Source of the DNA: Coniferiporia sulphurascens
Lineage: Eukaryota; Basidiomycota; Agaricomycetes; Hymenochaetales; Hymenochaetaceae
Length of the DNA: 64,000 nucleotides
NCBI GenBank assembly: GCA_002794785.1
Contig: NBBA01000015.1
Span: forward strand, 372,001 to 436,000
Direction of reading: 5' to 3'
Shown here: one piece after another, positions 2,125 through 27,242 of the stretch
How positions within the stretch are numbered: the first letter of the stretch is position 1
Layout of the letters: each line of letters opens with the position of its first letter
The notes under the pieces: model-generated
Seen by the model: only the letters and a program-made list of their open reading frames with translations
Databases searched by the model: none
Told to the model about the DNA's origin: nothing
Program-made: the position numbers and the translations under genes

Positions 2125-2166
2125 CATCAGGAAAAGCCCAAATGCTATATAGTGTGGCAGGATAAC
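2125..2166 (+). repeat. Left terminal inverted repeat of the 25-kb element
   Basis: This is the outer 42 bp of the left TIR. It is interrupted at 2166 by the Copia insertion and continues at 8099 with TATATAGCACTATATAGCAT. It pairs with the complement of 27160-27229. The first 30 bases differ from the right end by one substitution and a one-base gap. Confidence 0.8.
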
Positions 2167-2422
2167 TCTTAAAATCTACGCACATTGTGGTAGACGATGA
2201 GGTGCAGTGGTAAGGGTAAGGTGGAATGGGGTTATCAGTGTAAACCAATGTATTTCATGGTAGAGACCAGCTCTCCTTATATACATCTACTGTGGGCTAT
2301 GTATACTATAACTATCATAGCTCCTATTCATATGGCATTATCATTGCATTATCATTCACTTAGTAAGATGAATGTTCATATGACCATCTGTTATTTATAT
2401 TGTTCATTATATTTATTTAATA
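2167..2422 (-). repeat. Copia 3' LTR
   Basis: This 256-bp repeat is almost identical to 7838-8093. Read on the element strand it begins TATTAAATAA and ends TTTTAAGA, which is not the usual TG...CA. The same ends and the same length class appear in the solo copy at 19207-19463. Confidence 0.9.
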
Positions 2423-2439
2423 CTCCCCTTCAAACTTTT

Positions 2440-5400
2440 ACTAGGTGGAGTAGACTTGTAAAACATTTGATTAATTCAATTGTTAGTGCTTTCGTCATAA
2501 TATCAGCTTTTTGCTGTCCAGTTGGAATGTATGAAACTGATATAGTTTCATTTTCTATATAATCTCTTAAAAAATCTTTTCATATATCAATATGCTTCGT
2601 TCATTGCATATATTTTTGTTCTGTTGAATTTACTATAGTTATGGCTGCTTGATTATCACATAATATTTTCATAGGTGTATCCAAGGTCTGCAGTACCTCT
2701 TCAACCAGTCTTCTAAGCCATATAGCTTCTTTAACTCCATGAGTTAAAGCTTGTAATTCTGCTTCACATACTGATAATGACACTAATTCTTGTTTTTTAC
2801 TTGACCATGATGTCGTTGCATTTCCAATTTGAAATATATATCCAGATATTGCTTTATGTCCTTCTTGTGTCATTCCATCGGCATCAGTATATCCGATTAA
2901 CTCAATTGGTTCTTTTCCTCCGAGTATTAACCAATAATCATTTGTTCCTTTTAAATATTTAAAGCAGTGTTTTACTGCATTATAATGTTTGATACTAGGC
3001 TTATTTAGATGCCTAGCAAATTGACCTGTTGTGGATGATATGTCAGGTCTAGTGCAATCTGCTGCATATCGTAGTGCTCCAACCATATTCATGTATGGTA
3101 TTTGTTGCATGAAGTTTAATTCTTCATTGGTTGGGTTTTCCAGTGATTTTAATACTTGTCCTGGTGTCATTGGCATTCGTACTGTTGCAGCATCTTTTAA
3201 CTTATACTTTTCAATGATTGTATCAATATAATTTTTCTGTCTTAATTTGATTATTCTTTCTTCTCGGTTTCTTTCAATTTCAATACTGAGTAACCAATGT
3301 ACATCGTTTCCATCAGTAAATTTTATGTGTTTTCCTATTTCATCTTTGAAGGCTTTTATTATTAATAAATTTAAGCCACATATTGTTATGTCATCAACAT
3401 GTATGAAAAGTATTAGGATAGTTTTTTCTTTTACTTTTCTAAAGAATATTGCGTTATCTTGAACTGCTTGTGTAAGTCCTATTCCCGTTAATATTTCTGA
3501 TAACTTTTTATACCATCATCTTCCTGCTTGTTTTAATCCGTATAATGCTTTATTTAATTTTAAAACTTGTCCAGGTTTTGTTTCAATTAGATTTCCTGGC
3601 AGTGGTTTTATATATATATTTTCATCTTTTTCTAATTCACCATATAAGTAAGCTGATTTTATATCGATTTGGTGAATTTCGTAATTGTTTGTTGCGCTCC
3701 AACTTAATATAGTTCTTACTGTGGCTAATCATGCCACTGGAGCAAATGTATCATTAGAATAGTAGTCAATGCCTTCCATTTGGGTGAATCCTTGTACTAC
3801 TAGTCTTGCTTTGTATCATTTGATTTCTCTGTTTGCTAATCTTTTTGTTTTATAAATGAATCTTGTTCTGATTATATTTACGTTTTTTGGTGGATCAATG
3901 ATCGTCCATGTAGATCTTTCGATTAATGTTTTTATTTCTTCTTTCATTGCTGTGATCCACTGATTTGCGTCAATTCTATTGATCGCTTGTTGATATGAAT
4001 TTGGATCGCCTATTAATTCCGTATTGAATTGATTAAATTCCGTAAGATAGGCTACTGTATTTTGTTCATCAAAGTTAAGACCTATTGATCATTTTGTTGG
4101 TTTAATTGATCTTATTGGTCTTTCTTTTGTTAATTCTTGTATTTGCTCATTTTGTTTTTCTGTTATATTCTCCCCTTCAATTTTAGATGGTGGAGAATCT
4201 AAAAATTGTAAATTTTGTTCAACTGTAATTTTTTTGTGGTGATAGGTTCAATGACCTTTACTTTCTTCGTCAAAACCTAGCTGTTGTGCATAAATTCCTT
4301 TCAGTTGTAATTTGTTAACATCTTCTTGTCATATTATGCAGTATTGACCAAATTCTTTTAAATCGTCAATGTTATAATTTTCATTGTATCATTTGAAATA
4401 TGATGTTTTAAAATCAATAGCACTCTTTGGTGTTCTATTGTAAACGTAAGTGCTGTATTTTACAGCTTCTCCCCATAAACTGGGTGGTAATTTTGCTTGT
4501 AGCAGGTTAACTCATGTATTATTTAGAATTGTTTGATGTGATCATTCTGCTACTCCGTTTTGTTGTGGTGTATCGTGAACAGTCAGCTTTTGTATTGTTC
4601 CATTTTTTTCTAAGAATTCAGTGAATTGTTTACTTAAAAACACTGTATCATTATTGCTTTGTAATATTTTTACTTTTATATTAAATTGTGTATTGAGCAT
4701 TGTAGCCCAATTCATATAATTTTTCAAGCCCTCATCTTTTGTTTTCATTAAAATCATTTTTATCCATCTAGTAGTGTCATCTACTAGTGTTAGAAGATAT
4801 TTATATCCTCCTATGGCATGTGTGGATACAGGACCCCATATGTCCATGTGTATGTGATCGCCAAATTTTTCTGCTAACTTTGAAATACATAATTTTGGAA
4901 TTTGCATTCTTTTTATTTTTGCTTCAATGCAAATTTTACATTGAGTTTCGTCGTAATTTGATATTTTGTTATTTGTAATTTGATCTTCTTTTAGTAATCG
5001 CTTTATATAAGCATAACTTATGTGTCCAAGTTTTTTATGAAGTTCAAATAATGTTAAATTTTTTGTAGCCGCTTGTACATCATTGTTAAATATACTATAC
5101 AATCCATTCCTGTTTTTAATTTTTCCGCATAAAGATCCATTAGGATACTTTATTGTACATTTGTTTTCTTTATAAATAAATTCGTAACTGTCTTGACATA
5201 GAAGTCCTTGAGAGACTAATGTCATATTCATTTTAGGATTGTAATATACATTTGATAATGTAATGACACTTACCAAGTGTCCATTGGGATGTAAAGCTTA
5301 AGATCCCCTACTATGTTTGCCATAAATGTTGTTTTGTTTGCGGCCGTTATTGTTATTGCATCAGTTTTGTAAGTATTTCGTAATCGATTTAGATATGGTG

Positions 5401-7246
5401 TTAGATGTATCGTTGCACCAGTATCAATTATATCCATAGAAGAATAAACATTGTTAGCATATTCATTTGTAGTAATGGCATTTATGCTTATGTCAAGGTT
5501 GTTGTCATCCACGTCTTCCATAGCGCTGTCGCGATTCCCTAAAGTGTCAAGGAAGTCATTATAAGAATAAATTGGGAATTCTCCCATTTCGAAGTCATCT
5601 TCGTCAATCTCGGTTATAAAGGCGGTCTCGCCTTGGCCTATTACGGTGCTTAATTCGATTCGAGAGCTCGATGCAAAGTTTGTTGCTGCTGTTGCTGCAG
5701 TATGTTTAGCCTGGGCCGCACTTGCCCCAGTTGATGTTGGTGCCACTGATGCACCCGTTTCCTTTCCTTTTCCTTTTTCGTCATTTGTGTCCTCTTTCTT
5801 TTTCTGGGCTGCTTTCGTCCATTTGGTTTTTGGCACCCAGCAGTCTCTACTAAAGTGCCCTAGCTTATTACAGTTATAGCACTTTACTGTGTGTGATTGT
5901 TGGTTAGGGGAATATCCCCCATGTCCTCGTCCTCTCATATATCCGCCACAGCCCCTATAGCTGCGACCTCATGATTGTACACTGCAGCTAAAACTGCGTC
6001 TGTGGGCCCTAAAATAAGGGTGATTCCACTCGTCCTTGGGCAGGTGGTTAGCTGCCACTCCTGTCCTCTGATGATTTTTCCGCCATCCTTCAAAAGCATT
6101 ATGTAAGGTGTTTAATAGGAATTGTGGGGTTAGTTCAATTGGATCATTCCCCGGATTTGTTTCGTTAATAGTTTTTATATATAACTCACTTTGTGTGAGT
6201 ACATACTGATATTGTTTGGGCATTGCCCACGTAATAGCCGATATATACATTGACTCAGAAACTTTTACCCCTTGGGCTATTAGTTCCTCGTATTTATTGC
6301 TGAGGTTATCGAGTGTTCCATTGAAATGGCTGACATGACCTCTGATATCAAAAAGGGCAGCCTCATTAAAGCCCTTTGTAATTGTTGTCTGGACGTTATA
6401 TCGTCCACCAAGTGCTTTGAGTAGTGCTGGTATATCTTTATTAAAATTAAGATAATAAGCCAGTATTTTGTCAGGCATAGTGCACATAATGCCGTTATAT
6501 AAAGCACTTGATATACCAATCTCTCCAGTTCCTGGGGAGTTAGTGAGCAAGTTACCGTAACCTGCACTTTTGATGGCGCTGCGGACTCTGAAATTCCAGA
6601 GTTTATAATTTCTGTGGCCATCGAGTTTCTCGATGCCATCGAAGAATTTCTGGAGTTCTGTGAGTTTCGTTGCCATACTCGGTTCATCTTCCTCAGTATC
6701 GTTAGCATCTGAATCTCCAGGATCAGAAGGTTCTGATGGCTCATGTGAAGGTTTATTTTTTGATTCTTTGGTATCTTCTTCCTCATTGTCTTCTTTTTTA
6801 TCATCTTCTGGCTTAATATAAGGATTATCAATTTTGAACTGTTCTTTTTCTTTTGGATCAGATATACCCAAATACGTACTGATTCAATATCGGATTTCGG
6901 ATGATTTTCCTTGATCTGATATGCCTAAATCTTTAGCATGATTTGTTAATTCAATTTTATAGTCAGCTCTTGTTTTTAATTTTTCGTTGTTGGTGGAATT
7001 ATCATACCTGTCAATTCGATCTTGTATTTGTTGTTCCATTCCGTGTATAGGTATTTGTCTGAGATTACATTGAATTATTAGGTTGACTAACCTTTTGCTA
7101 TCTTTGGCTTTTTGAATTTTTTCTTTGAGTTCTTCGATTGTTGATGACTGCATGTATACTATTTTTAATTTGTTAGTGATTATTCGCAGTCCTGATAGTT
7201 TTTGCAAATGTGTTTGCTCACGAGTATTAGGACGTTTGTTGGACAT
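2440..7246 (-). pseudogene. Copia gag-pol polyprotein, decayed
   Basis: Gag begins at 7246 and one frame runs to 5270, broken only by TGA at 6884 and 5969. A CCHC zinc knuckle (CYNCNKLGHFSRDC) and the protease motif DTGA lie near 5880 and 5430. A one-base shift at about 5276 leads into the pol frame. It carries the integrase zinc-binding region, the D-D-E core (DIWGP... and PQQNGVAE) up to 4545, reverse transcriptase with FIHVDDI near 3390-3410, and RNase H (ILCDNQAA near 2660) down to about 2440. In-frame TGA codons stand at 4542, 4512, 4389, 4329, 4248, 4089, 3816, 3729, 3516, 2601 and 2580. There is no TAA or TAG. At several of these sites the Copia family normally has Arg (for example before YKARLV and around TKHIDI). 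This implies CGA-to-TGA decay, and the element cannot encode its proteins now. Confidence 0.9.
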
Positions 7247-7307
7247 AGTTTCATTTCATTTATAATTTGTTAATCGTTTCATTAGTTTGTAGAGTCAAGG
7301 CTCATAA

Positions 7308-7830
7308 TGTTAAGCTCAATGGTTACATGGTGATCGACATCGGGGCTGGTAGTACGGCAATGGGGCTTCCTAGATGTTGTAAGTCGAAGGTGATCAGTGA
7401 GGAGGCTTCCTGATCGGCAATGTGGACACGGTAGGCTTCTTAGCAGAGTCAGGTTACGACAAAGCGACTGGCGACTCGGTAGTCACACAGTAGACTGGTG
7501 AGGAGCAGATAATGGGCTTGTATGAACAAAGAGCACAAGCTTAGGGCTTGTGCTACCGACTTTACAGGCTTATATGCTACTCTATGCATTTACTACTGTA
7601 GCTGCTTGTATGCGGTCATTTACATGGCATGGAAGGTCATGGAAACACAAGGAATGCGATCAGTAAGTGGAGCACGTCATGATGGTGCGATAAGGCATCA
7701 TCATGGCATCTTATGGCGTGTTACAAATAAGGATGAGTAATAGAGAGAAATGGGGGAGTTGCGCTGACTGGTGATGATGAAGAGGGAATGAGTCAGTGCA
7801 ATGAGGTAAACGTAAAGGAAAATTGTAACA
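7308..7830 (+). mobile_element. Solo Gypsy LTR inside the Copia leader
   Basis: This 523-bp sequence begins TGTTAAGCTCAA and ends AATTGTAACA. A CATAA duplication flanks it at 7303-7307 and 7831-7835. It is the same LTR family as the Gypsy element at 17340-24639. It is inserted between the Copia 5' LTR and gag, and no internal region remains. Confidence 0.9.
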
Positions 7831-7837
7831 CATAACC

Positions 7838-8093
7838 TCTTAAAATCTACACATGTTGTGGTAGATGATGAGGTGCAGTGGTAAGAGTAAGGTGGAATGG
7901 GGTTATCAGTGTAAACCAATGTATTTCATGGTAGAGACCAGCTCTCCTTATATACATCTACCATGGGCTATGTATACTATAACTATCATAGCTCTTATTC
8001 ATATGGCATTATCATTGTGTTATCATTCACTTAGTAAGATGAATGTTCATATGACCATCTGTTATTTATATTGTTTGTTATATTTATTTAATA
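7838..8093 (-). repeat. Copia 5' LTR
   Basis: This is the 256-bp partner of 2167-2422. On the element strand it is followed by GGTTATGAGCC once the solo Gypsy LTR is removed. That stretch is the likely primer-binding region, although the tRNA is not identified. Confidence 0.88.
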
Positions 8094-8098
8094 ATAAC

Positions 8099-8340
8099 TA
8101 TATAGCACTATATAGCATTAAATAGGACTATTTTGTAGCTTTTGAGATAATATAGCATATATAGCACTATATAGCACTATATATTGGCCAATAGTGCTAT
8201 ATAGCAGTATATAGTACTATATACTGCTCAAGTAGTACTATATAGAAGTACATAGCACTATATTACCTTCTGATAAGTATTATGGCTATTTTTGAGTATT
8301 TTGAGTATTTCAGATTATTTGAACTATTTTTTCAGTCCCA
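8099..8340. repeat. Left subterminal TATATAG repeats of the TIR element
   Basis: This AT-rich stretch is packed with TATATAGCACTATATAG-like units, many of them palindromic (CTATATAG). The same units occupy the right end (about 27060-27210). Repeated short motifs just inside the TIR are typical of transposase-binding sites, but that role is inferred. Between 8340 and 8800 I see no gene. Confidence 0.6.
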
Positions 8341-8806
8341 AATCCTCAAAGGATTGGAGTAGAAGCCAAATTCGTCACACCCTCCTTTCGAGGCCATGCC
8401 AAAAGGTGCACTCGACTGTGATGTACAAGCTGACCGACAGTACCCCACCTCTTTCGCTTCAGTAATAATATCTCATCTTGCCCGTTATTTCCATACTGTT
8501 CAAGTTAAGGAAAAGCAGTACAATATTCCAACGAGATAAGTAATTACACGACAGAATCTGAGCGCATGTAGTAAAAGTGGGAGGACGGAGATAAAGAGAC
8601 GGGAGGCGTACTTCAAGGCGAGGAGACAGTTTGAGATAGAAAGATAAAAGTACGAAACAGAATGGACATAGCAGCCAGGACAGCACAGCAGAAACACATG
8701 GACTTAAGGAGAGAAAGCAGAGGGGCTAGTCGTGCATGTAGTTAGAGTAGAGACGATGCGAATTTGAGTGATGGTAGTTAAAAAGGACTTGCGTGTCTGA
8801 TATCCA

Positions 8807-11320
8807 TCACGGGGGTGCACCTTGTAATCGCATTTGCACCTTTGCACAATGCTGGGGATTTTTAAGGTGCACCTCGAAGTTTATGAGCGACTCGCCAGGA
8901 CCTGGAGTATTTACCTGTGCCAACGCCAATTGCTAAACAGTCAACACGCCATTCACAGCAACCAGCAGCAGGTGAAGATAAACACACCTTTCCAGGACAA
9001 TCAAGGCACTTCACACGCCACTCTGATGGGAAGCCATTGGCCGCCCTGCGCAGGATTATATCGAAGCGATCTTCGGGATAGCGGGATTGCGTTTCAGCGA
9101 TTACACCTTTATGCCACTGGGGCCGCCGCGGTTCCGTGAGAACACCATACAATGCGCGATATAATTATATATATACTCACACTAAGGTGGGGAGGTGGTG
9201 TTTCCTGGACGGGCGTTGCTTCAGGTGCAGGAGTAGCGAACGCTACGGACACCGACGGGGGTTCGGACCGTGCCGACTCTCTGGGTGTTGGCGCTGATGC
9301 CGAGGCCTCTGCCTGCACTGGTAACTCAGCTGCCGCCCTGGCCGGGGTAGTAGCAGAAGATGCAGGTCTGCTTCCACTGGCACCATTACCTTGCAGCACC
9401 GCTTGTGCAAGCGGACGCTCTGATGCACCTGAACTGACGCTAGAGGCCGGCGACAGTGGACGTTCAAGAAGCTCAAATGCCTCCGATGCCGGCGATGGTG
9501 GCCGTGTCTTCTTCACTGCCTTGATCCCAATCCACACCTCATGCTTCGGCACAGCCGGCGAAGATGTGCCGTCTGTAGGGGAGACAGGGGCCGGAGCTGC
9601 ATCCTGCTGTAAATTGAGCGCACGCATCGCTGCAGCGCCACCCCGCTTTTTCGCGCTGGCTTTAGCGTGCTCGGCCTCCATTTTGAGGTTGGTGTGATAT
9701 TCCGCATCGGTACTATACTCCACCGAACGTGGATGACGATAACGATGCCAAAATTTGCCTAAGAGATCATCGTCAGAATTTCGTCAACGACAAGGGAAAT
9801 ATATGATCCGTACCACAGGCACCGCACTGCGACTTGTCACCCAGCGGACCCTTTCGTCTACCGATCGCGATACTGTCGGGACAGCCACAATCGGAACAAT
9901 GCCAGACACCATCAATTATATTCGCGCGCTGCCCATCTGCATACTCATGCTCCTTGGCCTCTTTCTTGAGCTCCCTTTGCCGATGGGCCGAAACAACCTT
10001 GGCCGCTTTTGAATCCCGCGCAGCTGTAGACGACGTTAATGACACCGGTAACGGAAGATCGCCCTCCAACGGGAGCTCGTATGCTGCCACATCCCCCACA
10101 GTCGATGGCGTCGGCATGGTGACATTTGCACGAGTAGTCAACACGGATGAAGGGTACTTCGGCGCCTTGAAAGAGCCTTTCGCTTTCGAGATCTTCGACA
10201 ACGGAACTGCGGGTGCAGCCGGCATGCTCGAGATAGGTTGAATTATCGCCGTGCCGTTCTCTGAAGCGACCATATTTGCGATAGTGAGAGACGCTGCTGC
10301 CACAGCCACCCGACGCGATGTCGGTGCAGCCACGGCTGCAGCAAGCGCAAGCATAGACGGATCGATCTCGGGGAACCCAATGGCCGGAGTACGATGCGTC
10401 TTAAGTGGTTCACGATCAGGTAGAGCAATTCTGCGACATCCACATGTATTACGTTTCCGTCGTTTATTAGCTTCCTTTTCACGTTCTTTATCGAGCCTGT
10501 CAAGTTCTCCATCGCTCAGATAATTGATGATCGGCTGGAACAACTGCGTTTGATCGACAGACCGAGACACAGGAGTGATCGATGGCAAGAAGGACATGTG
10601 CAAATCGTCATCTTGCATCGCCAAGCCGTCAGATGGGTGTCCAACCAAGAAGAGCGACTTCTGGTAGGCATTGACTTGCTCCCGTATTGAGTGTGCGATG
10701 GCAGTTCTGTAAACTCAATTAGGATGTTATGCCGTCAGTGATCTGTGCCTGTGCCACTCACTTAAATCCTCCAGCAAGGCCAAGATCACTGCTATAAATC
10801 TCTGCGAATTGTTCCGGCATGGAATCTTCATTTTCAATATCCCACTCAAAAATTGATCGTCTAACTTCATCTCGCCCACAGTTATATCGAGCTGATAATA
10901 TCAAACTAATAAGCACTGCATAGTTACGGAGCGCAAACGCAGGGTGAAGTTGGCTCACCTTGATAACTATCCTCATCTCCTCATGCATCATGTCCTCGTT
11001 CACTTCAAACATCTCGACGTCCATCAACGAGTCTTCGTCGACAGGAGCCTTTTCCACGATGACGCTCACTTCCTGGTTGCACTTGTGACACTTCTTTGCG
11101 TGGCCCGGCGGCTCCTGCACACTTTGCAATAGCGTGCGTGTGCGGACGAATCTGTTACGGTTGTGTAAGCATTGTTTCCAGGTTTTCCACCACGTTGCTT
11201 CGGCATCCTGAAATCTGCCACACATCGGTGCACCTTCTGGGTTACCCTTCGAGGGGTCCGCAAAAGTTGCAGTGTGAGCCTTGTAGTCGCTCAGCTGCTC
11301 CTGAATACTAGCTTTTGTAA
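8807..11320 (-). pseudogene. SNF5: SNF5/SMARCB1-like chromatin remodeller, 5'-truncated copy
   Basis: SNF5 is a core subunit of SWI/SNF nucleosome remodellers. About the last two thirds of the gene is present with its introns. The order is a WWKTWKQ region (about 11220), an acidic segment ending MMHEEMRIVIK (10962), the SNF5 domain (LDITVGEMKLDDQF, then MPEQFAEIYSSDLGLAGGFK at about 10820-10760, joined by an intron to TAIAHSIREQ), and an Ala-rich region. It ends with a GATA-like zinc finger (WHCSDCGC ... CGACG | KFWHR across an intron at about 9760) and a tail with KCLDCPGK and TPGPGES. The frame ends at TGA 8807-8809. Two extra T residues at about 10852 (TTTTT for TTT before GAGTGG) shift the frame, and Arg-to-Cys changes occur at CG sites, so it is a decaying copy. 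Its 5' part is missing and a VPS35 fragment abuts it in the same orientation. Confidence 0.78.
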
Positions 11321-11344
11321 TCGTTGAATGGTAGCTCGAGGTGA

Positions 11345-12315
11345 CCTGTCTGTGAATTCTTTGATTCTCTCGCTTGCAAAGCCTAAGATCTGGTCAGCGT
11401 ACATTGTGAGCCTGTCAATGAGCGTGATGACGATCTGCTTGATGTTGACGGACTGCTGGAGCTGAGTAGTTGCGAGAGGAAGGGGACGAGAGAGTAGAGA
11501 TGGAGCTCGTTGGTGAAAACTTGGATGACGACTTCCATGAGGTAATCTTAGGCGATGATGTCTTTGCAGTTGACAACCTGCTCAAGGATGCTTGGGAGGA
11601 TTGTGTGCTGATACATTCCAAGGTCGACGCCATCAAGCACGCTGAGCCGTACGAGGTTGGTACCAATGAGAATACGCAGCTCGCATCGCTCCATCTCGCG
11701 CTTCTCGCGGTCATGTGAGTGTCCTTGGTGCCGCAGCCGTACCCAGAGCTTGTTCATCTCGATGAAATTGGTGAGCTTGAACGCGATCGAGTCCTGCAGG
11801 TTTCCGACCGGGCTGTGAAAGTGGAAATGAGGTCAGGGATCAGAGTGGGGGTAGGACACGTACCCCTCGTCGTCGCCTACAGGGATCCCGGGTCTGTCCG
11901 CTGAGATGGTGGTGGAGGAAGAGACCACAGGTGGGGTGCTGATGCTGCGTGACATCTCCGTCATGTCCTTCATGATCTCCTTGACAGGTGCGTCGGGGAT
12001 AGACATGTAGACGGTGCCGACGGTGATCATGAGGTATAGATGTGGGACGATATTGCGTGCATCATATTGAACGAGCTCATAGAGGTCGGCAAGGTGCTTT
12101 CCCTGCGTGTGTGCCGTAGACGTAGAGTGAGGTGCCAGAGGGTATCGAACACGGCCATGTCTGCGGTGGAGGAGGACGCATGTCAGAGTTGCAGCATCAG
12201 GAGATTGAACAGTAGGAGACCGCACATGTACACAATTCGTAGTATTGCTTTGGGGAGAGCAAGGAGGTACACAGGGTGCTGGCGATCTTGAGCACATCCA
12301 TGCCGATCTCCTGCG
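11345..12315 (-). pseudogene. VPS35: VPS35 (retromer) gene fragment
   Basis: VPS35 is the cargo-binding core of the retromer coat. The fragment shows LSPKQYYEL, an intron, then [107 protein letters not shown] and YLMEVVIQVFTNELHLYSL. This is the N-terminal half in the right order. After QIVITLIDRL it jumps to ADQILGFASERIKEF, which lies much further on in VPS35, so an internal segment is deleted. There are several one-base shifts, and a TAA follows CKDIIA at about 11547. Introns are retained, so this is a genomic copy. It cannot be translated. Confidence 0.85.
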
Positions 12316-12435
12316 GGTGATCAACTTCATATGGGTCTATAACCTAGAGCCTGTAATGTTAATTAGAAAGCATACTGTAAATGGAAATTAGGTCAGTAAG
12401 GTAGTCATAGGGGATGAATTTTGAAGAAATTTTAT

Positions 12436-12720
12436 GGCCTGGATGGCTCAGTGGTTGAGCGGTTTCCGAACCGTATGGAGGCTCGCTTAGAGTCAGGTGC
12501 TTTCGGGTTTCTGAACCTTATGCATCCGCTACTGGGATTGGCAACAGATACTGTGTAAGACAATCTGTCTATGCTTAACTGCAGCACTCTGGTATTGTGT
12601 AGGTGTGAATAATTCCGCCCCTCCCATTATTTTATTTTATTTTATCTTATGTTTTGTGGCTTTCCCCCCAGATGCTGCGGTGGGAGGGCCAAGTCCTGGG
12701 TTCAAGCCCAGTGGAAGCAA
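12436..12720 (+). repeat. tRNA-like A-box and B-box segment, possible SINE remnant
   Basis: The sequence GATGGCTCAGTGGTTGAGCG at 12443-12462 resembles a tRNA 5' half with an A box. CCTGGGTTCAAGCCCAG at about 12696-12712 forms a T-arm-like stem with a B box. The two are about 230 bp apart, far too much for a tRNA, and a run of TTTTA repeats lies between them. It may be a tRNA-derived short element with an insertion, or a chance pairing. The remaining sequence between the VPS35 and PHD fragments (12316-12890) has no gene. Confidence 0.25.
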
Positions 12721-12889
12721 GTGAATTTTTATTATTTTTTCCTAATAAATGCTACAATTCTCACGGCCGACTGTGCCGCAGGGGGGTGGGTGTGGCAAGT
12801 TGCAACTGCAGTGATTTGCAGACCCAGACGCGTCCTCCCTCCCTCCACCCACCAAAGAGCCTGACACTCACCCCTCCGTTCGCTCTGTT

Positions 12890-14610: not shown

Positions 14611-14654
14611 TACCAGTTCTCCAACTTACTCGCTCGAAGCTGACACTGTTCGCT

Positions 14655-14840
14655 ATCTAATCGCTAATACAAGGGTCGTTAGCCACTAAGAAGCATCCAA
14701 ATCAGTACACTTATCGAGGTAAATCTGGCTCTAATACCCAGAGTCGACGTGCACCGCAGTCGACACTTGGACAAAGCCAACATAACTCGACAACGCACGA
14801 CCATGGACCGAGCCGCATCCTACCTGTCTATTTTCTCCTA
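14655..14840 (+). pseudogene. Possible C-terminal piece of the PHD gene
   Basis: The frame reads KKHPNQYTYRGKSGSNTQSR, followed by a Ser/His-rich tail. A HPNQYTYR motif near the C-terminus is, from memory, a feature of fungal Cti6-like PHD proteins. If so, the NDUFS4 fragment interrupts the PHD gene. The attribution is tentative, and an alignment against an intact host PHD gene would settle it. Confidence 0.3.
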
Positions 14841-16925: not shown

Positions 16926-17339
16926 CAATCACTGCCTTTGTTCTTGAGTGCAGCTGTATAAGAAGGCTTCCGATCTGATGAGCAAAGCTAGGGATTGAGG
17001 GGCTTGTCCTATATAATAATCTTGCTCACCCTTTTCTTCCATAAGAATGTTACTAATAATTTTATTAATCACATTTTTGTGATTGCCAAGGCAAAATCGC
17101 TTTTTAAAGTAAATTTTCCCTGTGAATCTCATTTTTGGCAGGGTCTTGCGTGATATATCACTTTGGTAATTTGGGGAATGGTCAACTCCCAGAAAATATC
17201 CCAAAAGTAAAATATCTATGTGAGGTAAGTCCCTGGCAAAGCAAGGGATTGAGGGCTTGTAGAGGTGATAAACAAGCTGGGCAGGTTTGTGCAATATGTG
17301 AGAAATATTTCCTTATATATCTCTGTTTGTGGATATTTG
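16926..17339. other. Unassigned part of the TIR element core
   Basis: This stretch is AT-rich. An open frame of 121 codons on the minus strand (17294-16929) has no recognisable domain. It is probably another captured or decayed segment. Confidence 0.3.
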
Positions 17340-18019
17340 TGTTAAGCTCAACGGTTATGTGGTGATCAACATTGGGGCTTCCTGATCGTTGGTGCTGATG
17401 GTGATGACAATGGGGCTTCCTAGATGTCGTAAGTTGAAGATGATCGTCGGTGGGGCTTCTGTTAAGCTCAACAGTTACACAGTGATTGACATTGGTGCTT
17501 CCTGATCGTCAAGGCTGGTAGTTACAGCAATGGGGCTTCCTAGATGTCGTAAGTCGAAGATGATCGTCAATGGGGCTTCCTGATCAGCGATGTGGACGCG
17601 GTAGGCTTCTGAGAGTAAGTTGGGTTACGATGAAGTGACTAGTGGCTCAACAGCACACAGTAGACTGGTGGTAGCAGATAATGGGCTTGTATGAACAAAG
17701 AGCACAAGCTTAGGGCTTGTGCTACTGAAGTTACATGCTTATATGTTACTCTATGTGTTTACTACTGTAGCGGCCTGTGTAGGGTAGTTTACCAGACTAT
17801 GGAAGGTCATGGAAACCCAAGGAATGCCTTGGTAATACAAGTAGGGCTATCAGTAAGCAAGGCATGTCATGGTGATGCAATATGGCATCATCATGGCATC
17901 TTATGGTGCAAGGTGAATAAGGATGAGTAAGGAAGAGAAATGGGGGAGTTGCGCTGACTGATGATGATGAAGAGGGAAATGAGTCAGCACATATGGGAAA
18001 GTAAAGGAAAATTGTAACA
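17340..18019 (-). repeat. Gypsy 3' LTR with internal tandem duplication
   Basis: This LTR is 680 bp against 518 bp for its partner. The first about 120 bp (17340-17459) is a second copy of the sequence that restarts at 17460 with TGTTAAGCTCAA. The left half of this LTR family is made of short GGGGCTTCCTGATCG-like repeats, which may promote such duplications. Confidence 0.82.
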
Positions 18020-18660
18020 TTGCCTCCCATTTAGGATCGACAAGTCACCAAATTGTCAATAAAAAAATAAAAAATAAAAAAGAGGAAAGGGAAAATAAAT
18101 AAATAATAGAGACGAGTCTCAAAATAGAGTAAAAAAAAAAAAATCCAGGTGTATCAAGATGCCGGCCTAGCAGGTCTTTAAGTGTAGTGCTAGGTTCACC
18201 ACAGAGTTTGTTACCACACTCTTTGGTACCTAATCCTGGTCCTTCACCAAAATTAATGGTATGATGTCCAAAGACGGTGAAGAAGCAGAAAAAAGATGCA
18301 AAAAGAATCCCTAACCCGGATTGCAAGTCATAGGCGCCTATAGCGGCCAAGCAAAGGCCAATAAACAATAAGGAGAAGGCAAGCTGCCAATAAGGATGAT
18401 AACAAGCAGAGAAATGGGTGTAAAAAAAAGAAGTAGAAAAATGCACTAATGGGCCTTTTAAGGTCATACCCAGGAGTAGTAGTTTAGGGTCATTGCGGAC
18501 ACATGCTAGTTTTCTGTCATTGCGGACTAGAGCCCTCTTAGTCAGAGTGGTCGTCATTGTTTGACCCCATATTGACATCGTCTAGGTTGATACCAGCAGC
18601 GATGTCGTCCATGTAGGATTGGAGTAGAACTCGAGCCCCTAGGTCAGAGATGTGTACCAT

Positions 18661-20126
18661 TCATCTACCATTTGTTGAGGTGGTAGCTGGGGGTGGGATG
18701 TTCTCGTCTGGAGTAGATGCTGGTGTGAGTTGGGGAGGGGATGTCGACTGTCGTCTGTGTTGGGGACAATTTCCAGGAGGATGTCCTGGGGTGTTCCGGT
18801 TACACCATGGGCAGGTGTATTGTACACAGTAGGTGGTGAGATGGGCTGGCGATAGACACGCTGAGCAGTGTGTGCGTGAGGATGTCAAGGATGACGATTG
18901 AGACGGAGGTTGGACCGGAATGGGGGGTGCATCAGTCTGGGTGGCAGAGTTGCGATGAGTGACCACAGGTGAGGAGGGGATGGTTGGCACAAGAGGGGGA
19001 ATAGGTGCTGGTTGGTAGAGGTGTGCTTGAGGGTGAAGAGGGATGAGCACAGAGTGAAGACCTTCTTCTTCCAATGACTCATAATCTGTGTTGTGCAGGA
19101 GATGGAGATCGTCAACCAGATTACCCAAGCAAGAATCAAGCAACTCAGTGATTTCCTGGGCGTGCCATGCCAGGCGTTGCATGTCCTCCACCGTCCTGAG
19201 GCGTTGTATTAAATAAATACAATAAATGATATAAATATAGTATATGATCATATGATCAACCACCTTACTAAGTGAACGATAACGCAACGATAACGCCATA
19301 CGATATAGGAGCTAGACAGTTATAGTAGTACTAGCTCATGGAATGTGTATATAAGGGGAGCTGGTCTCGCCCTAGAAATACATCGGTTTATGCTGATAAC
19401 CCACCTTGCCTCAACTTCACCACTGCACCTCATCGTCTACCACAACGTGCGTAGATTTTAAGACGTTGGTGCATCCTGTTGATCTGGGTTGCTCTCGGGT
19501 GTGTGGAGATGAGACGGTTGACATCCGTATCCGGGTCTGGGGCTGCGAGTACGTGCTGGAGGATGGTACGCGGGAGGAGGGGTGCGAGTTGCCGGTTCTG
19601 ATTCTGTAGCGGGAACTGGCGACGGGTGGCTAGGTGGTGGTGGCGATGGTACTCGGTGTTGATGCCGCTGTTCCTGGAGTTGGGCTGCAAGGGTGAGTTC
19701 ATGGAAAAGGGCTGCCTGGTCATGAAGGTTGGTGAGGTGGAGAAGTAGGTCAACAGAAGGTGGGTCAGTGTGGCTTAGCTGGTTTTCTAGCCCTTCGATT
19801 TCGAATTCAATCTCGGTGAGGTCCGAGGGTTGGATGAAATCTTCGGGAAAGGTGTGTCTGAGTTGGTCGATGATGTCCTGGCGGGTGGGAGCGGATCTGC
19901 AGGGCTGATACTCTTGGTGGCGGATTTCAGCTGGAGGGTTTTGAATGGGGAGGGTTGGAGAGAGAGGTCGGCAATTGGCAATGGTGGGGTAGCGGATGTG
20001 CAGGGTACAATGTGTGCAGGCTCGAATAGTGGTGGTTAATGCACAGACAAATACGAATAGACCTCCGGGTATGGCGATGGTGAGGTACCAGAGGTGGTTG
20101 TTGGTGGTGATGTAGGCAGTGGGCAT
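18661..20126 (-). CDS. ORF region downstream of Gypsy pol (env position)
   Basis: A 222-codon frame (20126-19458) starts shortly after the pol stop. It has a hydrophobic segment near its N-terminus (about residues 15-35, LTIAIPGGLFVFVCALTTT), a charged middle and a Pro-rich end. It is cut by a solo Copia LTR. Beyond the LTR, in another frame, about 190 codons continue (19230-18661) with LAWHAQEITELLD and a Cys cluster reading CSACL...YCVQYTCPWC...CPQH, which resembles a zinc-binding knuckle. The two frames differ by one base at the LTR junction. Position recalls an env gene, but I see no similarity to a known envelope. The product is unknown. Confidence 0.45.
19207..19463 (+). mobile_element. 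Solo Copia LTR inside the Gypsy element
   Basis: This 257-bp sequence begins TATTAAATAA and ends TTTTAAGA, flanked by CGTTG at 19202-19206 and 19464-19468. It is the same family as the LTRs at 2167-2422 and 7838-8093, in the opposite orientation. It keeps several CG dinucleotides that are TG in the full-length Copia copy. Confidence 0.88.
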
Positions 20127-20156
20127 ATGATGAGAGGGTGATGCGGATGAAGGAAG

Positions 20157-23100
20157 TTAGGTGATTTTTTTGAGGGTTTTATACGTTTCTAGAGTGTCCA
20201 AGGCATGTGAAAGATCTTTTTTGGATAGCCATTGGTTCTCGGAAGATGGATAGCCGGCCCACTTAACTAGGAAACTCCGTCTGTTCCCGGCACCCTTGTG
20301 GGAGACGATGGCCTTGATTTTGTATTTCTGCTGATCTTCTATCAGGTCAGGTGGCAGTTGACTGAATGGAGGTCCATGTGCTTCGGTCTCCGAGTACGCC
20401 GAAAGAAGCGAGGCGTGGAAAATGGGGTGGATATGCCATGCGTCTGGCAACTTGAGGCGATAATTCAGGGGTGATAGTACCTGAATTATGGGAAATGGTC
20501 CCTCCCGTTTAGGTGACAATTTGCGGGATCAGTTGGGAAAATGTAAATTGGTGGCTTCTAACCAAACCTTGTCACCAAGTTTGAATGGTTTGAAGCCTCG
20601 TGCACCAAAACGTGCCATATGGGTGCAGGCTAGGTTGTGGGCAGCAAGCGCTTCTTTCCTGATTGATGAAAGAAGGCGCAGGTGCTGTGAGAGAGATGGG
20701 AGATCGGTGTCTTCTATCACCGCAGGGATGGGTATAGGGTTGTACCCAAGCATGATAGTGAACGGCAAAGTCTTGGTAACTGAATGGGTCTGGATATTGT
20801 GTGAGAATTCCAGGTCCATGAGTGAGTCAGCCCAGGAATGAGGCGATGTGCCGCAATAAATGCACAGATAAGCCTCTACTTCCTGATTGGCGTGTTCAGT
20901 TTGTCTGTCCGTTTGAGGGTGGTAAGCTGTAGATAGTTTAGACTTAATCCCGAGGCATTTACAGAGTGTCTGGAAAACCTGTGATGCAAATTGGGGTCCC
21001 TGGTCAGAGATTATGCACTTAGGGAGTCCGAAGTGTTTGTATACATTGTTGTGGTAACACTTCGCTGTTCTGAGTGCATCAATGGTCTTGTGGCAGGGAA
21101 TAAGAACAATTCCCTTGGACGCATCATGGTCAACGACTACCATTATGGAGTCGTATCTGTTAGATGCCAGTAGGTCAGTAATAAAGTCCATAGATACCGA
21201 TTGAAATGGGAGCATCGATGTGTCCGTGGGTATCAGGAGCATCGGCGGCTTGGTCGGGTGCATGTTGATTTTCATCTGTTGACACATGGCGCATCCTTTG
21301 ACATAGTTTCCCACAAAGACAGTTAGGCCAGGCCACCAATAGTGTTGTCGCACTAATTGAGAGGTTTTGAATACCCCGGGGTGGCCAAATGATGGGAGGT
21401 CATGGAACATCCGTAAGATTTCTTGTTTGATTTCCACATTGTCTGGTATGTAGACTTGTTTCTGGTATTGGAGAAGACCGGAATCAATGGTCCAGTCATC
21501 AAGAGAAAATCGGAAAGGAGACGGGATTTTCAAAGCCCGTGCATCCTGGATCGTTTTCGTGAATGAGTCCCCTTCCTGGGCATCTCGAATACGATTCTGG
21601 AGATCAACATTGATTGTTCCAATGAATAGTGTTTCCAGTAGCATAATACATTCTTCTAGTGGTTCTTTGCCATGGTCAGGGCATCTAGATAGGGCATCAG
21701 CACCAGGGATAGATTTTCCCGGGTGGTGAGTGATTGCGCAGTTGAACTGGGAAAGGAACAGATTCCATCGCGATTGTCTCGGGGTTAAGCGGCGCTCTGA
21801 TCAGAAATACAATAAGTTTTTGTGATCACACCAGATCGTGGTCATGTGTGGGTTGCCAAGTAAGTAGTGGTGCCATGCTTTGAGGCCACGTATTATCCTG
21901 AGAAGTTCTCTGTCATAAACTTCATAGCGCTGTTGGGCAGGTCCGAACGTTTCGGAGATGTAGCCGCAAGGTTGAAGATCACCATTAGAGTTTGCCTGGT
22001 AGAGGATGGCTCTGGAGGCAACTTTAGATGTGTCCATTTCGAGGATGAACAGTTTGGTGGGGTCTGGTACAAGTAGGGCTGGTTTGTTTAGAAAGAGCAT
22101 TTTAAGTTTGGTAAATGCTTGATCTCATTCAGTTGTCCATTTCCATTGTTCGTTGGTGCGGGTGAGCTCGTTAAGCGGGTATATGATATCTGAGAAGCTA
22201 GGGATGAACTGTCTGTAATAGTTGCAGAATCCCATAAAGCTTCGCAGCTGTTTAACGGTACGTGGGGTAGGCCAATCAGCAATGCCAGCAAGTTTAACTG
22301 GATCCATGTGAATATTATCTGGGGTGATGATCATCCCCAGAAATTCGACGTGTTGTACACCAAATAGGCATTTTTCCAGTTTACAATAAAGGTTGTTGGC
22401 AGTGCAGATATCTAGTACTTGGCAGGTGCATTGGTAAAGTTCTTCCATTGAGTTGGCTGGGATGAGTACATCATCCATGTAAATCATGGTTCCGTCTTCA
22501 AGTATTACGAAACGGAAAGTATCGTCCATGAAGGCCTGGAATGTGGCTGGTGAATTGCATAAGCCGAAGAACATGACAGTTGGTTTGAACAGTCCTCGAG
22601 GAGTTTTAAAAGTGGCTTTCCATTGATCACTGTCCTTGATCTGAATGTTATTGTAGCCAGAGTGAAGGTCGAGTTTTGTAAAGTATTTGGCTCCCTTCAG
22701 TTTGTCCATGAGGTCGCTGATCAGGGGTAACGGGTACACATTCTTAATGGTTCCTTCATTAAGTGCTCAATAATCTTGGCATCCGCGAAGGCTAGTATCC
22801 TTCTTCCCAACAAAGAAGAAAGGAGATGCCATTGGGGATTTAGAGGGGTGGATGTATCCTTTGCGAAGATTTTCATCTAGGAATTCGTTGAGTGCTGTGA
22901 GTTCTTTGGGTGCCAGTGGGTAGACTTTACAGTCATGTGGTATGAAATCAGGTTTGAGGTCAATGGCATGGTCATATGGTCTGGAAATCAGGAATCATTC
23001 TGCAGATTTCTTACAGAAGATGTCGAGGTACCGGTGGTATTCAGGTGGAACCATTTGTTCCACAGGTTTCATTTCTTTAACCTGTTCCTGAGCCAGTGAG

Positions 23101-23552
23101 GTAGCAGTGGTGACCTTTGCGATAGCGAGAGTGCCTTTATTCCAATCAATAACCGGGTTATGGTTCTTTAACCATGGTAGGCCAAGGATGATGTCTTCCT
23201 TGCCTAGAGATGTTATGAGAAGTTTCATAGGGAGTGACTTCTCCTGGATGCAGACCAGTCGCCAAGTGTATTTGGTGATGGTTCCATGCTCGTTGGTGGA
23301 TCCGTCTGCATTAAGAACAGTAATGGGATGGGCAAGTGTTCGCGTTGGTATGCAATGCTTGATAACAAATTTGGCATCGATAAACTGGCCTTCGGCGCCA
23401 GAATCGATGAGCATGTTGGTGGGGACGGTTTGGTCATAGACAATCATAGAAATTGGGATCTTCATTGCAGGGAGTGAAGGATCGGAATTTACAATTGGAG
23501 ACATGGTAACAGGAAGACTTAATGTCTGTCTAAGCTTCCTCTTTAAAAACCC
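20157..23552 (-). pseudogene. Gypsy pol polyprotein, decayed by TGA codons
   Basis: One frame runs from the gag overlap to TAA at 20157. The protease motif is LIDSGAEGQF (about 23410). The reverse transcriptase has LPLISDLMDKLKGAKYFTKL and the YMDD box (about 22475), RNase H has LEMDTSK (22030), and the integrase has the HHCC region (HPGVF...CAMCQQ, about 21390-21280) and D-D-E residues (SMDFITD, ISDQGPQF, AYHPQTDRQTE). A C-terminal chromodomain reads FLVKWAGYPSSENQWL (about 20235), which targets integration to modified chromatin in this group. Internal stops at 22995, 22767, 22125, 21801 and 20529 are all TGA, mostly at sites normally occupied by Arg (DY-R-ALN, YF-R-). There is no frameshift and no TAA or TAG, so the copy is inactive but otherwise well preserved. 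Confidence 0.9.
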
Positions 23553-24121
23553 TGCTTGTCCAGGATGTCGAAGATTTCGTCTTTCTTCATCTCGTCGAAG
23601 TGACTGAGCAGGTTACGGATGCTCGCAGTGATGTGCTTGGGCGAGGTGTTCTCGGGGGTTGGCTCGGGTGTCTCGACAATGGGGAACGCGTTGTTGATGG
23701 TACGGACAGTACACTGTTGGTTTGGTCCTTGCTGGTACTTGGTGCAATCACAGGCATTGTGCCCCTTCTCTCTGCAGGCAAGACAATGTCCTTCGCACAT
23801 GCATTTGGCACATTCTTCCTCTGAGAGATGTGGTGGGCGGCTGGTAGCTGTAACCTGCATACTACGCTGGTTAGGCTGGTATGGGCGGCACTGCTGGTTG
23901 TTTCCGAGGTTACAGAAGTGGTTCTCTTGTTTAATGGGAGCTTGTCCCGGGCCGTGGAGGGCCTTGAGTCGCTGGTAGACAGCGTCCTGCCTGGAGGCCT
24001 CACGATACCATTCCTCAATGGTGGTGGGCTGTTTGGTGTTTGCGAGAACACATGCCAGAAGGCCATGTTTGAGGCCTTTCTCGTAGATGGGGATGAGGTT
24101 GTTGTCCCCTGACATGCCAGC
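23543..24121 (-). pseudogene. Gypsy gag, C-terminal half
   Basis: The frame begins inside the 5' LTR and the first ATG in the element is at about 24115. It covers the C-terminal capsid part (GDNNLIPIYEKGLKHGLL, IEEWYREASRQDAVYQRL) and a Cys/His knuckle (CEGHCLACREKGHNACDC). The N-terminal half normally found in Gag is absent. The frame stops at TAA 23543-23545, just after a slippery GGGTTTT. Confidence 0.85.
23546..23552 (-). promoter_or_regulatory. Candidate -1 ribosomal frameshift site between gag and pol
   Basis: On the element strand the heptamer GGGTTTT lies directly before the gag TAA and fits the X XXY YYZ rule. Slipping back one base enters the pol frame, which is open from there to the protease. 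The second signal (a downstream structure) was not verified. Confidence 0.5.
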
Positions 24122-24639
24122 TGTTAAGCTCAACGGTTACGCGATGATCGACGTCGGGGCTTCCTGATTGTCGGGGCTGGTAGTATGGCAACAGGGCTTC
24201 CTGATCAACAATGTGGACGCAGTAGGCTTCTGAGCAGAGTCGGGTTACAACGAAGCAACTAGTGGCTCAATGGCACACAGTAGACTGGTGGTAGCAGATA
24301 ATGGGCTTGTATGAACAAAGAGCACAAGCTTAGGGCTTGTGCTACTGAAGTTACATGCTTATATGCTACTCTATGTGTTTACTACTGTAGTGGCCTGTGT
24401 AGGGTAGTTTACCAGACTATGGAAGGTCATGGAAACCCAAGGAATGCCTTGGTAATACAAGTAGGGCTATCAGTAAGCAAGGCATGTCATGGTGATGCAA
24501 TATGGCATCATCATGGCATCTTATGGTGTAAGGCGAATAAGGATGAGTAAGGAAGAGAAATGGGGGAGTTGCGCTGACTGATGATGATGAAGAGGGAAAT
24601 GAGTCAGCGCATATGGGAAAGTAAAGGAAAATTGTAACA
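24122..24639 (-). repeat. Gypsy 5' LTR
   Basis: This is a 518-bp TGTTA...TAACA repeat, near-identical over most of its length to 17460-18019. On the element strand it is followed immediately by gag sequence, with no primer-binding site. Confidence 0.88.
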
Positions 24640-24739
24640 ATTTGCCTGTCATGTGACATACTTCTATAAATTTGACTCAGGGTCTTCTGCTTCTTTTCCT
24701 TTTACCACCATCATCCCATTTGCAAATATTCCACATTTG

Positions 24740-26213
24740 TGTTAGGACCAAGGGTAACCATGGTTAGCCGATGGAACAAGTAGTCGAGATAGAGTTGAGG
24801 CATGTGATTGAGTCAAGAATAAGTCGGTAGATGTTGGTACTTCACTCAGGAGAAGTCTGAGAGAATTGAGAAGGTGAATTAAACTGGGGGTCTAGGCTGG
24901 TCTAGGCCTCCCTTATATACATGAAGAAGAAGCTCCGCTTGAAAGCGGACGCTCCACAAGGCTCTGCAGTTGGAGCTATGATGCCTCACAGTGTCGTCAT
25001 AAGCTCCACTGACTTGGAGCTGCGTACCAGTGCAATGACCTCATTAGAGGATCATATGAGAAATAACTATCTATGATTGGCCATTGGTGCTCCACTGAGC
25101 TCCACTGCGTGTCATGCGCTCCACTATGCTCCACTAGGCTCCACTGAGCTCATAGTGAAGTCATAGGTGTCATAATGACTTCACCATGATGCTTAGGCTG
25201 TGTGCGTCGCCCCACTGTTCTGCATGCTACTCTGTAGTCTTATGTGCCAGTGGCTTCTTGTTGAGATGCTGCCTAACAGCTTGATGATTGGTAAGTCGTT
25301 GACTTGTCTTGTTGGCCTCCTGTACTGGTTCCTCCATGTTATCCTGTTGTATTGGACACTTCACCATTTAGGGTTTGTGGCTGGCTTCGGTAAGTGCTTC
25401 GGTTCCTGCTAAGTGTGGCTTAATTGCGTAATGCGATATCGGCTAAAGGTCCATAGGCGGGTACCTTTCGGTTGGTGTCCTGTCATCAATCACATTGTCT
25501 GGCGGTTCATTAATGTGGTTTATCCTAGCAATACATCGCGTATATCCTGGAGGTGGCACCAGGGGTGATCCATTTGATAACCATAGTGTTATCACGTAAA
25601 AATTAACATTGCCGATCTGTTGATTGGTGGTCGTTGATCCCTTTGCTGATAGATTCTCGAAGAGGGTGATTACCTTTGTGCGTAATCAGTGAGCGTTAGC
25701 TAGGAATGTGTTATCCTGCAATGTCCTATATGGGAAGGATCCTGAGACCACTTGTAGGTCACATTCCTTGTCATGTATGTGCGGGTTCACTATCGTCTGG
25801 ACATGGACATTGTGCAAAAACTCCTGTACATCAAAGATGTACATTTGTATTGTGTGCATTACCCTGACCTCCGTGCCATCGCCTATGGGGTCTACAGTGT
25901 GATCTGTAGTTACCTGGCAGTTCGTGTACCCTGCCATGTAAAAGCATTCAGTTATTACTGTGTTAAATGCTTCCCATGATTGATTGTATGCGGTCCGGCA
26001 TCGGTGGCAGAGTATTGACAGGTCAAGAGTCTTTAGCGGTTGCTTGAGCATCATGATTGGCCTGATGTTCCCAAGAAGTCCTGGTTTTCTAGTTAGTTCC
26101 GTCCCCATGTTGAATGATCGCTGGATAGTCTCCGTGGGAGTCCCTTCCTGTATTGGTAGTCGCTGGTATCGTTGCCTAAGCTTGTAAGCAAGCTTATTCA
26201 TCAATTCCTAACA
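24740..26213. mobile_element. Large solo LTR or short LTR-type element with its own ORF
   Basis: The ends are TGTTAGGA and TCCTAACA, and ATTTG duplications flank it (24735-24739 and 26214-26218). Only the short terminal inversion is shared between the ends, as in a single LTR, but 1474 bp is long. It contains a cluster of GCTCCACT repeats (about 24970-25145) and an open frame of 172 codons. The internal retroelement it came from is not in the window. Confidence 0.7.
25686..26204 (-). CDS. Unknown repeat-borne protein with CxxC and YxNCQ motifs
   Basis: This 172-codon frame starts 9 bp inside the element end. An N-terminal basic region is followed by LCHRCRTAYNQSWEAFN, then YTNCQVTTDHT and VRVMHTIQMYIFDVQEFLHNV. 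A second, diverged copy of the last 110 residues is at 63113-63487, which suggests purifying selection or a recent common source. I do not recognise the family. The Cys pair plus later Cys could bind zinc. Confidence 0.5.
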   Translation of the reverse strand: MMNKLAYKLRQRYQRLPIQEGTPTETIQRSFNMGTELTRKPGLLGNIRPIMMLKQPLKTLDLSILCHRCRTAYNQSWEAFNTVITECFYMAGYTNCQVTTDHTVDPIGDGTEVRVMHTIQMYIFDVQEFLHNVHVQTIVNPHIHDKECDLQVVSGSFPYRTLQDNTFLANAH

Positions 26214-26218
26214 ATTTG

Positions 26219-26930
26219 GGATTTTGGTCATCCTAGATCATAAAAATATGTCTTGGGAAGTGGAGAAGGAGACTGATAGATTATCCTACTTTCTCTTCTC
26301 CATGTTCACTCCCACATATTATGCCTGCAATGCATCATCTCTTAACTTCAGATTTCTGCATCATTACTTCTTCCTCCCACAAGGACCCAATGCTTATCAT
26401 GCTTGTTGGTTTGCATGTCCTTGGGAGTACATCATTCATGCCATATCTGGCCTGTCCCCCATTTGACTTTGGCATTGCTTTCTCAAATAGTATTGCCATT
26501 GTCACCAGTGCATATCACATTTTTCAAACATTCTATGATGTAATTCTTTCCATTTATTTCAACTGACTTATAGATTCATCCACCATCCCAGTTGAACATC
26601 TAGGAGGTCTACTCATAAAGGTGAGTAATATGTTTCACAGATCTGTTGAACATCTCTTTATAGCTGATTTATTTATGCTTTCACTAACAGGACTCCTGTT
26701 ACCATGCTCATAGAGTGTTTCTTTTTTCTAATTGCTTAGGATGTTTTGGCCCCACTGACCACTGATTTGCCAGTTTTTATGCTTCTCTTCAGTCATACTT
26801 ACATACACCTGACTTGAAGAGTAAGATGTCTATATATCATAGCCAAATAGAACATATTTTCTCTGAAAGGACTAGACAAAGAATGTGATCAACCAATTGA
26901 CCAGGGAGATTATCAGTCAGAAATAGTCAA
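26219..26930 (+). other. Core of the TIR element, unassigned
   Basis: There are open frames of about 80 codons (26224-26466 and 26321-26566) with hydrophobic content and possible splice sites near 26622 (GTGAGT). They might be remains of a transposase or another captured gene. I cannot assign them. Confidence 0.25.
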
Positions 26931-27229
26931 ATATAGTCAGAAATAGCCAGAAAATAGTAGTAGATAGTCATAAATAGTGAGAAAATAGTTGAAAGTAGAC
27001 ACAATATAGTGAAAAATAGTGAAAAATAGTTGGAAAATAGTACAAAATAGTAGAGAAAGGGGGCTATATAGCAATATATAGTGCTATATAGTAAGGGGGC
27101 CTACTATATAGTACTATATAGTACTATATATGACCAAGAAGGGCTGGATTAACCTATTTTACCTATGGGCCCTATTTTAATTATATAGTGTTATATAGTA
27201 CTATATAGCATTTTGGGTTTTTCCTGATG
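26930..27229. repeat. Right subterminal repeats and TIR
   Basis: First come many AGAAATAGTC/AAAATAGT units, then TATATAGTACTATATAG palindromes, then the terminal repeat ending CCTGATG at 27229. This matches the left end (2125-2166 plus 8099 onward). Confidence 0.7.
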
Positions 27230-27242
27230 TATTGAAACGCAC

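Follow-up and report, generated by a model that had tools for sequence, protein, structure and literature searches.

A non-autonomous Plavaka transposon of Coniferiporia sulphurascens carries fragments from at least six host loci

Introduction

Several described transposon systems resemble an element that we found at positions 2125-27229 of a 64,000-nucleotide window from the basidiomycete fungus Coniferiporia sulphurascens. The window is the whole stretch of DNA that was analysed (C15:372001-436000, in an assembly of 39.3 Mb and 31 contigs); C numbers denote contigs and also name the element copies that lie on them. The comparisons below go as far as the cited accounts do. PlavakaB transposons of Agaricomycotina are described with termini CATCA..TGATG and target duplications of 2 or 3 bp (PMC12730594). 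The window element is like them in its termini, its 2-bp duplications and its related copies with the Plavaka transposase domain PF18759; unlike those described there, whose cargo is a TET/JBP dioxygenase gene, its own subfamily is without transposase and holds pieces of several ordinary host genes (PMC12730594). Plant Pack-CACTA and other Pack-TYPE elements are likewise non-autonomous, are bounded by terminal inverted repeats (TIRs), contain coding pieces from more than one locus and have CACTA-like relatives (PMC8903248). What differs here is the fungal host, the Plavaka lineage, the presence of some of the same cargo (NDUFS4 and PHD-finger pieces in copy C25) in transposase-bearing relatives, and the before and after states of the cargo, which misfit capture by tandem insertion.

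Within fungi, hAT transposons with a histone H3 gene, reported from Pyrenophora and Pseudocercospora, also represent a host-type gene multiplied in the genome inside a DNA transposon (PMC3538342, PMC6710886). These are hAT elements with one captured gene, however, and in Pseudocercospora the gene is a spliced copy and the duplications measure 8 bp. Pleurotus ostreatus Helitrons are, like our element, basidiomycete elements with genes called captured, but they are rolling-circle elements without target duplication, and no fragments of P. ostreatus genes were seen in the intact ones of that account (PMC4289320). An earlier note, drawn from the letters of this stretch, had called elements of this kind little described in fungi, which is right in part, hAT elements with histone H3 having been published in several fungi (PMC3538342, PMC6710886). 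Among the listed papers that mention Plavaka, no title or opening of an abstract concerns capture of several host genes; most subscription papers lie outside that search, and an earlier report of a Pack-type Plavaka is possible.

Results

A Pack-type element and its cargo

The element is a non-autonomous, Pack-type Plavaka transposon whose cargo includes pieces from six or more host loci, of which five are known genes. Its inverted ends are about 30 bp long, with the left TIR (CATCAGGAAAAGCCCAAATGCTATATAGT) at 2125..2153 on the plus strand and the right TIR at 27200..27229 on the minus strand. A 2-bp duplication, TA, lies immediately outside them at 2123..2124 and 27230..27231, and the flanks of the element, joined at one TA, align straight through an empty paralogous target with a single TA (30072..30073) in a neighbouring tandem gene copy of the same window. 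The TIR element with TA duplication that the earlier note had proposed, coordinates included, is thus exact. Setting aside three later inserts leaves a core of about 10.4 kb. TATATAG motifs, counted on both strands, crowd the arms of this core, with 16 in its first 300 bp, 14 in its last 300 bp and 2 in the middle 9.8 kb; the repeats are subterminal in the left arm (8094..8359) and in the right arm (26214..27199), whose inner part (16984..17339) was delimited by DNA alignment. In six frames, 26214-27229 gave no Pfam match, and neither there nor in 8094-17339 did Pfam find a transposase.

Between the arms, Pfam identified PHD and NDUS4 domains on the plus strand and SNF5 and Vps35 on the minus strand, and a minus-strand frame at 14831-16435 matched the solved structure of yeast Ufd4 (E 5e-32). 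The donor loci of six cargo pieces lie on six contigs (C14, C1, C3, C12, C15 and C2) and align to the cargo at 87-98% with introns kept. Together these results bear out what had been read from the sequence, that SNF5, VPS35, a PHD gene, NDUFS4 and UFD4 are represented by intron-bearing pieces, as well as the expectation that parental loci would be found elsewhere in the host genome. The cargo begins on the minus strand with a SNF5/SMARCB1 piece (8360..11341; introns kept, 93.4% to its donor on C14), followed by a VPS35 piece (11339..12316, minus strand; 87-89% to VPS35 on C1) that has an internal deletion. Next comes a segment (12317..12822) of which about 340 bp is common to the transposase-bearing copies C20 and C25, and then, on the plus strand, a PHD-finger gene piece in two parts (12823..14081, 93% to C3; 14671..14806, 98% to C3). 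Within it sits a 581-bp NDUFS4 piece (14086..14666, plus strand; 92% to C12) in place of 33 bp. A UFD4 piece on the minus strand is split in the same manner (14850..14979, 97% to C2; 15992..16983, 94% to C2, the latter including the stretch that matches solved Ufd4) around a 1014-bp piece (14980..15993) that is 94.6% alike to C15:777018-778031 and replaces 5 bp. The earlier note, which counted five or more pieces, had the five named genes right and missed this sixth piece; it also listed NDUFS4 beside PHD, where the donor alignment places it inside the PHD piece.

The cargo was copied from genomic, intron-bearing DNA. The SNF5 piece aligns to its donor over 2990 bp with 17 gap columns, and the SNF5 profile match on C14 falls into three blocks. 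Donor intactness, judged by profile coverage alone, came to positions 23-712 of 726 for Vps35 on C1 (in pieces), 2-224 of 225 for SNF5, 1-74 of 96 for NDUS4 and 3-306 of 306 for the HECT domain of UFD4. The donor of the 1014-bp piece had no Pfam match in six frames of the fetched stretch (L075). A second SNF5 locus on C22 (profile 1-225) is absent among the DNA matches listed for the core.

A family with two kinds of left end

We searched the genome for both end patterns with up to 3 mismatches and paired copies by position. The right-end pattern occurred at 20 places and the left-end pattern at 21, with no match to a backward control of either; 15 copies could be paired, and the remaining end matches stayed unpaired. 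Identical 2-bp flanks border 13 of the 15 pairs (CA 4, TT 2, AA 2, TA 2, and GG, TC and AT), and none has a 3-bp duplication. The copies with the same ends but different cargo that the earlier note had predicted therefore exist, although most cargo is shared by sister copies and only part of it differs. Copy numbers are lower bounds, as the DNA search scored the best 40 of 76 candidates; what we say of C12, C21 and C30 is based on match coordinates, and of C2, C25, C9, C3, C7 and C6c on fetched parts.

Nine paired copies have the left end of the window copy (subfamily 1), and none of the nine contains a PF18759 match by coordinates. Six others, of 17-24 kb, have a slightly different left end (subfamily 2: C1, C7b, C12b, C16, C20 and C25), and by coordinates all six contain PF18759 matches, in C1 only in part and in C20 in two pieces. 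This transposase has its nearest relative in Phellopilus nigrolimitatus (68% over 89% of the query). C25, which bears the transposase, also carries NDUFS4 and PHD pieces, so that the two subfamilies have cargo in common. The C20 copy (L070, L071) has a DUF6532 match and a cellulase-family match below the Pfam cut-off, and stretches of it are 85-94% alike to loci outside it on C8, C13, C15, C11 and C20. The transposase-bearing copies at C20:583747-600955 and C16:367483-386770 are 96-100% alike where they match, and parts of them have further matches on C15, C8, C13 and C11. Common to both subfamilies is a stretch of about 340 bp (window 12434-12775; L070:8231-8572 of the C20 copy); the idea, formed by eye, that it is a tRNA-like SINE (short interspersed element) was dropped, ARAGORN having found no tRNA in 8094-17340.

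Termini of the form 5'-CATCA..TGATG-3' and the duplication length (2 bp in 13 of 15 pairs) fit PlavakaB, a CACTA-like lineage, the assignment to B being drawn from the termini, and similar-ended copies carry a Plavaka transposase (6/6 paired subfamily-2 copies). As in Pack-TYPE elements, the window copy is non-autonomous, shares its ends with a transposase-bearing element and holds host-gene pieces with parents elsewhere. Helitrons make no target duplication; these copies have them. In TA-specific superfamilies (Tc1/mariner and the like) the duplication is always TA. We rejected such a superfamily because TA accounts for only 2 of the 13 matching duplications, and TA as a trait of the family, as the earlier note had it, gives way to the Plavaka lineage.

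Some copies have features of their own. C6b is nested in copy C6a, which continues beyond it with 2 bases of overlap, and the C10 copy sits in what looks by eye like gypsy-like sequence. Three stretches on C11 (239255-242880, 409602-412270 and 450545-453311) together resemble one sister copy; their orientation is mixed, as though an inversion or some other rearrangement had broken it up. The copy at C3:2046808-2057410 (L019, L046, L050) is a hybrid whose left end is of subfamily 1 and whose right end is of subfamily 2; in it, a piece with Pfam matches to LRR and Exo_endo_phos, which we take to be CCR4 although that name goes beyond the Pfam match, adjoins a PHD piece that ends at donor base 1501, the base at which PHD sequence meets NDUFS4 in other copies. 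C10 has a PP2A B56 piece (Pfam; C10:1089449-1090128) between its PHD and UFD4 pieces, not found in the window copy; a search with it returned no solved structure at E 0.01, but the query frame differs from the frame that matches B56.

Two captures seen before and after

For two of the pieces, NDUFS4 and the 1014-bp piece, the genome contains the acceptor both before and after capture. The PHD piece of C10 and C9 passes uninterrupted through the NDUFS4 site (donor positions 2272 to 1032). In the window copy, C11, C6c and C7 the piece breaks off at donor position 1501, NDUFS4 follows, and PHD sequence starts again at 1467. C2 and C25 have the same right-hand join (NDUFS4 929, PHD 1467) and have lost part of the left side. 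Similarly, UFD4 is uninterrupted in C10 (1317 to 1) and C2 (1310 to 146). In the window copy and C6c the 1014-bp piece separates UFD4 positions 1188 and 1182, and C7 and C11 align to the window without a break over both joins of this piece. The uninterrupted PHD and UFD4 states equal the donors and are therefore ancestral.

A third change is read from sister copies. C10, C9 and C3 share one SNF5-VPS35 join (SNF5 1138, VPS35 1618), and C2 and C12 retain Vps35 positions from 70 or 71 to 712, with none of the 22 SNF5 matches found lying on C2, C7, C12 or C21. Set against each other, the shared join and the longer Vps35 in copies without SNF5 matches mean that SNF5 probably replaced the 3' part of VPS35. 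Across this join the window copy has lost about 490 bp. Copies with SNF5 and no NDUFS4 (C10, C9), with NDUFS4 and no SNF5 (C2, C7) and with both (the window copy) fit no single tree without recombination if neither capture is precisely reversible, and we infer that the window copy joins two capture lineages. The order SNF5-VPS35-PHD-NDUFS4-UFD4 was seen only inside copies of the family; finding it outside any TIR would, according to the earlier note, have pointed to another rearrangement. At the joins, matches overlap by 4 bp between SNF5 and VPS35 (C10), 4 bp between PHD and UFD4 (C2) and 7 bp at the VPS35 deletion (C10). The 1014-bp piece has a 2-bp overlap on the right and no overlap on the left, and NDUFS4 has 4 unmatched bases on each side.

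Direction of copying

C-to-T differences were summed over the six donor alignments, leaving out the three shortest pieces (63, 136 and 130 bp). A donor C corresponds to an element T at 197 of 1412 CpG sites and at 98 of 2896 other C; in the opposite sense, an element C corresponds to a donor T at 30 of 1070 CpG sites and at 74 of 3031 other C. The element copies have thus decayed at CpG and the donors have not, and from this excess on the element side the direction of copying is read as donor to element. The decay also suggests CpG methylation of the element copies.

Later insertions and surroundings

Three inserts of long terminal repeat (LTR) type entered the element later, each with a 5-bp duplication. 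By eye, these are a copia-like retrotransposon on the minus strand (2167..8093; two 257-bp LTRs 95% alike; duplication ATAAC), a gypsy-like one on the minus strand (17340..24639; ATTTG) and a solo-LTR-like TG..CA insert of 1.47 kb (24740..26213; ATTTG). A copia-type LTR in inverse orientation lies at 19197-19467, within the gypsy-like insert. Around the element extends a tandem array of similar genes (1-2124 and 27232-31000), in blocks 76-91% alike and spaced about 28 kb across the element; by eye, the genes flanking the element look Hsp70-like.

Discussion

We favour, with a probability of roughly 0.78, the reading that the window copy is a non-autonomous Pack-type element of the PlavakaB lineage, moved in trans, whose cargo was copied stepwise from distant loci by repair and whose copies recombined. 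The transposase of the similar-ended relatives of 17-24 kb would probably move it. Breaks or gaps inside the element would have been repaired in several steps with ectopic templates from distant host loci, the repair closing with little or no homology, and recombination among copies would then have combined two capture lineages in the window copy. That the family as a whole gains cargo through ectopic-template repair of internal breaks or gaps from distant genes, with recombining copies and a genome that keeps a stepwise record of capture, we consider slightly better than an even bet. Of the 41 end matches, those closest to a donor belong to the window copy, at about 378 kb from the donor of the 1014-bp piece, and to a C12 copy, at about 407 kb from that of NDUFS4; each donor thus lies more than 370 kb from all of them. 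Nor did six fetched donor stretches (1.5-6 kb each) contain an element end or a TATATAG motif. Given no ends near donors, and internal inserts at which 5 and 33 bp were lost, copying from an ectopic template into an internal break or gap explains the data best.

Several points weigh against this account. Transposition was not observed, and mobility is read from repeated copies with duplications, of which 2 of the 15 pairs do not match (C3, TG/TC; C6a, AA/GG). The transposase frames of subfamily 2 carry stops, which may be introns or damage. The joins are not uniform (some overlap by 2-7 bp, others contain 4 filler bases or do not overlap), so that end-joining of a loose fragment could also have produced them. 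The donor stretches are short, one donor (that of the 1014-bp piece) is without a Pfam match, and copies that once lay near donors may since have left. For the older captures (first VPS35, PHD or UFD4), no before state was found.

Those oldest pieces are where tandem insertion, in which two elements that flank host DNA become a single mobile unit by loss of their inner ends, could apply. This is the reported mechanism for CACTA-type Pack elements (PMC8903248; PMC13317346), and copies of our family do come side by side, as in the C3 hybrid of two subfamily ends and the nested copy on C6. The NDUFS4 and 1014-bp pieces, however, are set into older cargo that came from other contigs; 33 and 5 bp were lost there, and on either side of each piece the older cargo is continuous with its own donor. 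In addition, TATATAG motifs number 30 in the two 300-bp ends together and 2 in the middle 9.8 kb, and the six donors have no end match within 370 kb. Tandem insertion is thus disfavoured for these two captures, and as an explanation of the whole element we regard it as unlikely.

More doubtful still is an origin of the chimera in a Helitron or some other element, with later uptake by the TIR element. Helitrons make such chimeras in plants, with counts given for maize (PMC13317346), and captured genes of unknown origin are reported in Pleurotus Helitrons (PMC4289320), but the differing piece patterns among copies and the additions inside older cargo need repeated capture within the family; no search aimed at Helitron ends was made. 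Capture from spliced transcripts, published for histone H3 in a hAT element of Pseudocercospora (PMC6710886), is scarcely credible here, as donor alignments run through introns (SNF5: 2990 bp, 17 gap columns, a profile match in three blocks); for the long pieces SNF5 and VPS35, retained introns contradict capture of cDNA. As hard to credit is that unrelated repeats happen to bound a product of chance rearrangement or misassembly, an idea that the later insertions in the element and the C11 pieces resembling one broken copy might bring to mind: the ends are the same, duplications match in 13 of 15 pairs, and several loci share inner joins.

By what route TIR transposons acquire pieces of unlinked genes is an open question (PMC13317346). 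According to that 2026 review of plants, tandem insertion is the route so far revealed, and an alternative, yet undiscovered route may exist for DNA transposons and unlinked genes. In the present genome, the acceptor before capture, the acceptor after it and the donor survive in one assembly for two events, making the junctions, the lost bases and the direction directly readable, and sister copies with the states before these two pickups hint at how such elements gather genes. With this element, the range of Pack-type multi-gene capture widens to include a Plavaka family in a fungus. Ectopic-template repair, if true, would be the kind of route that the review calls alternative and yet undiscovered (PMC13317346).

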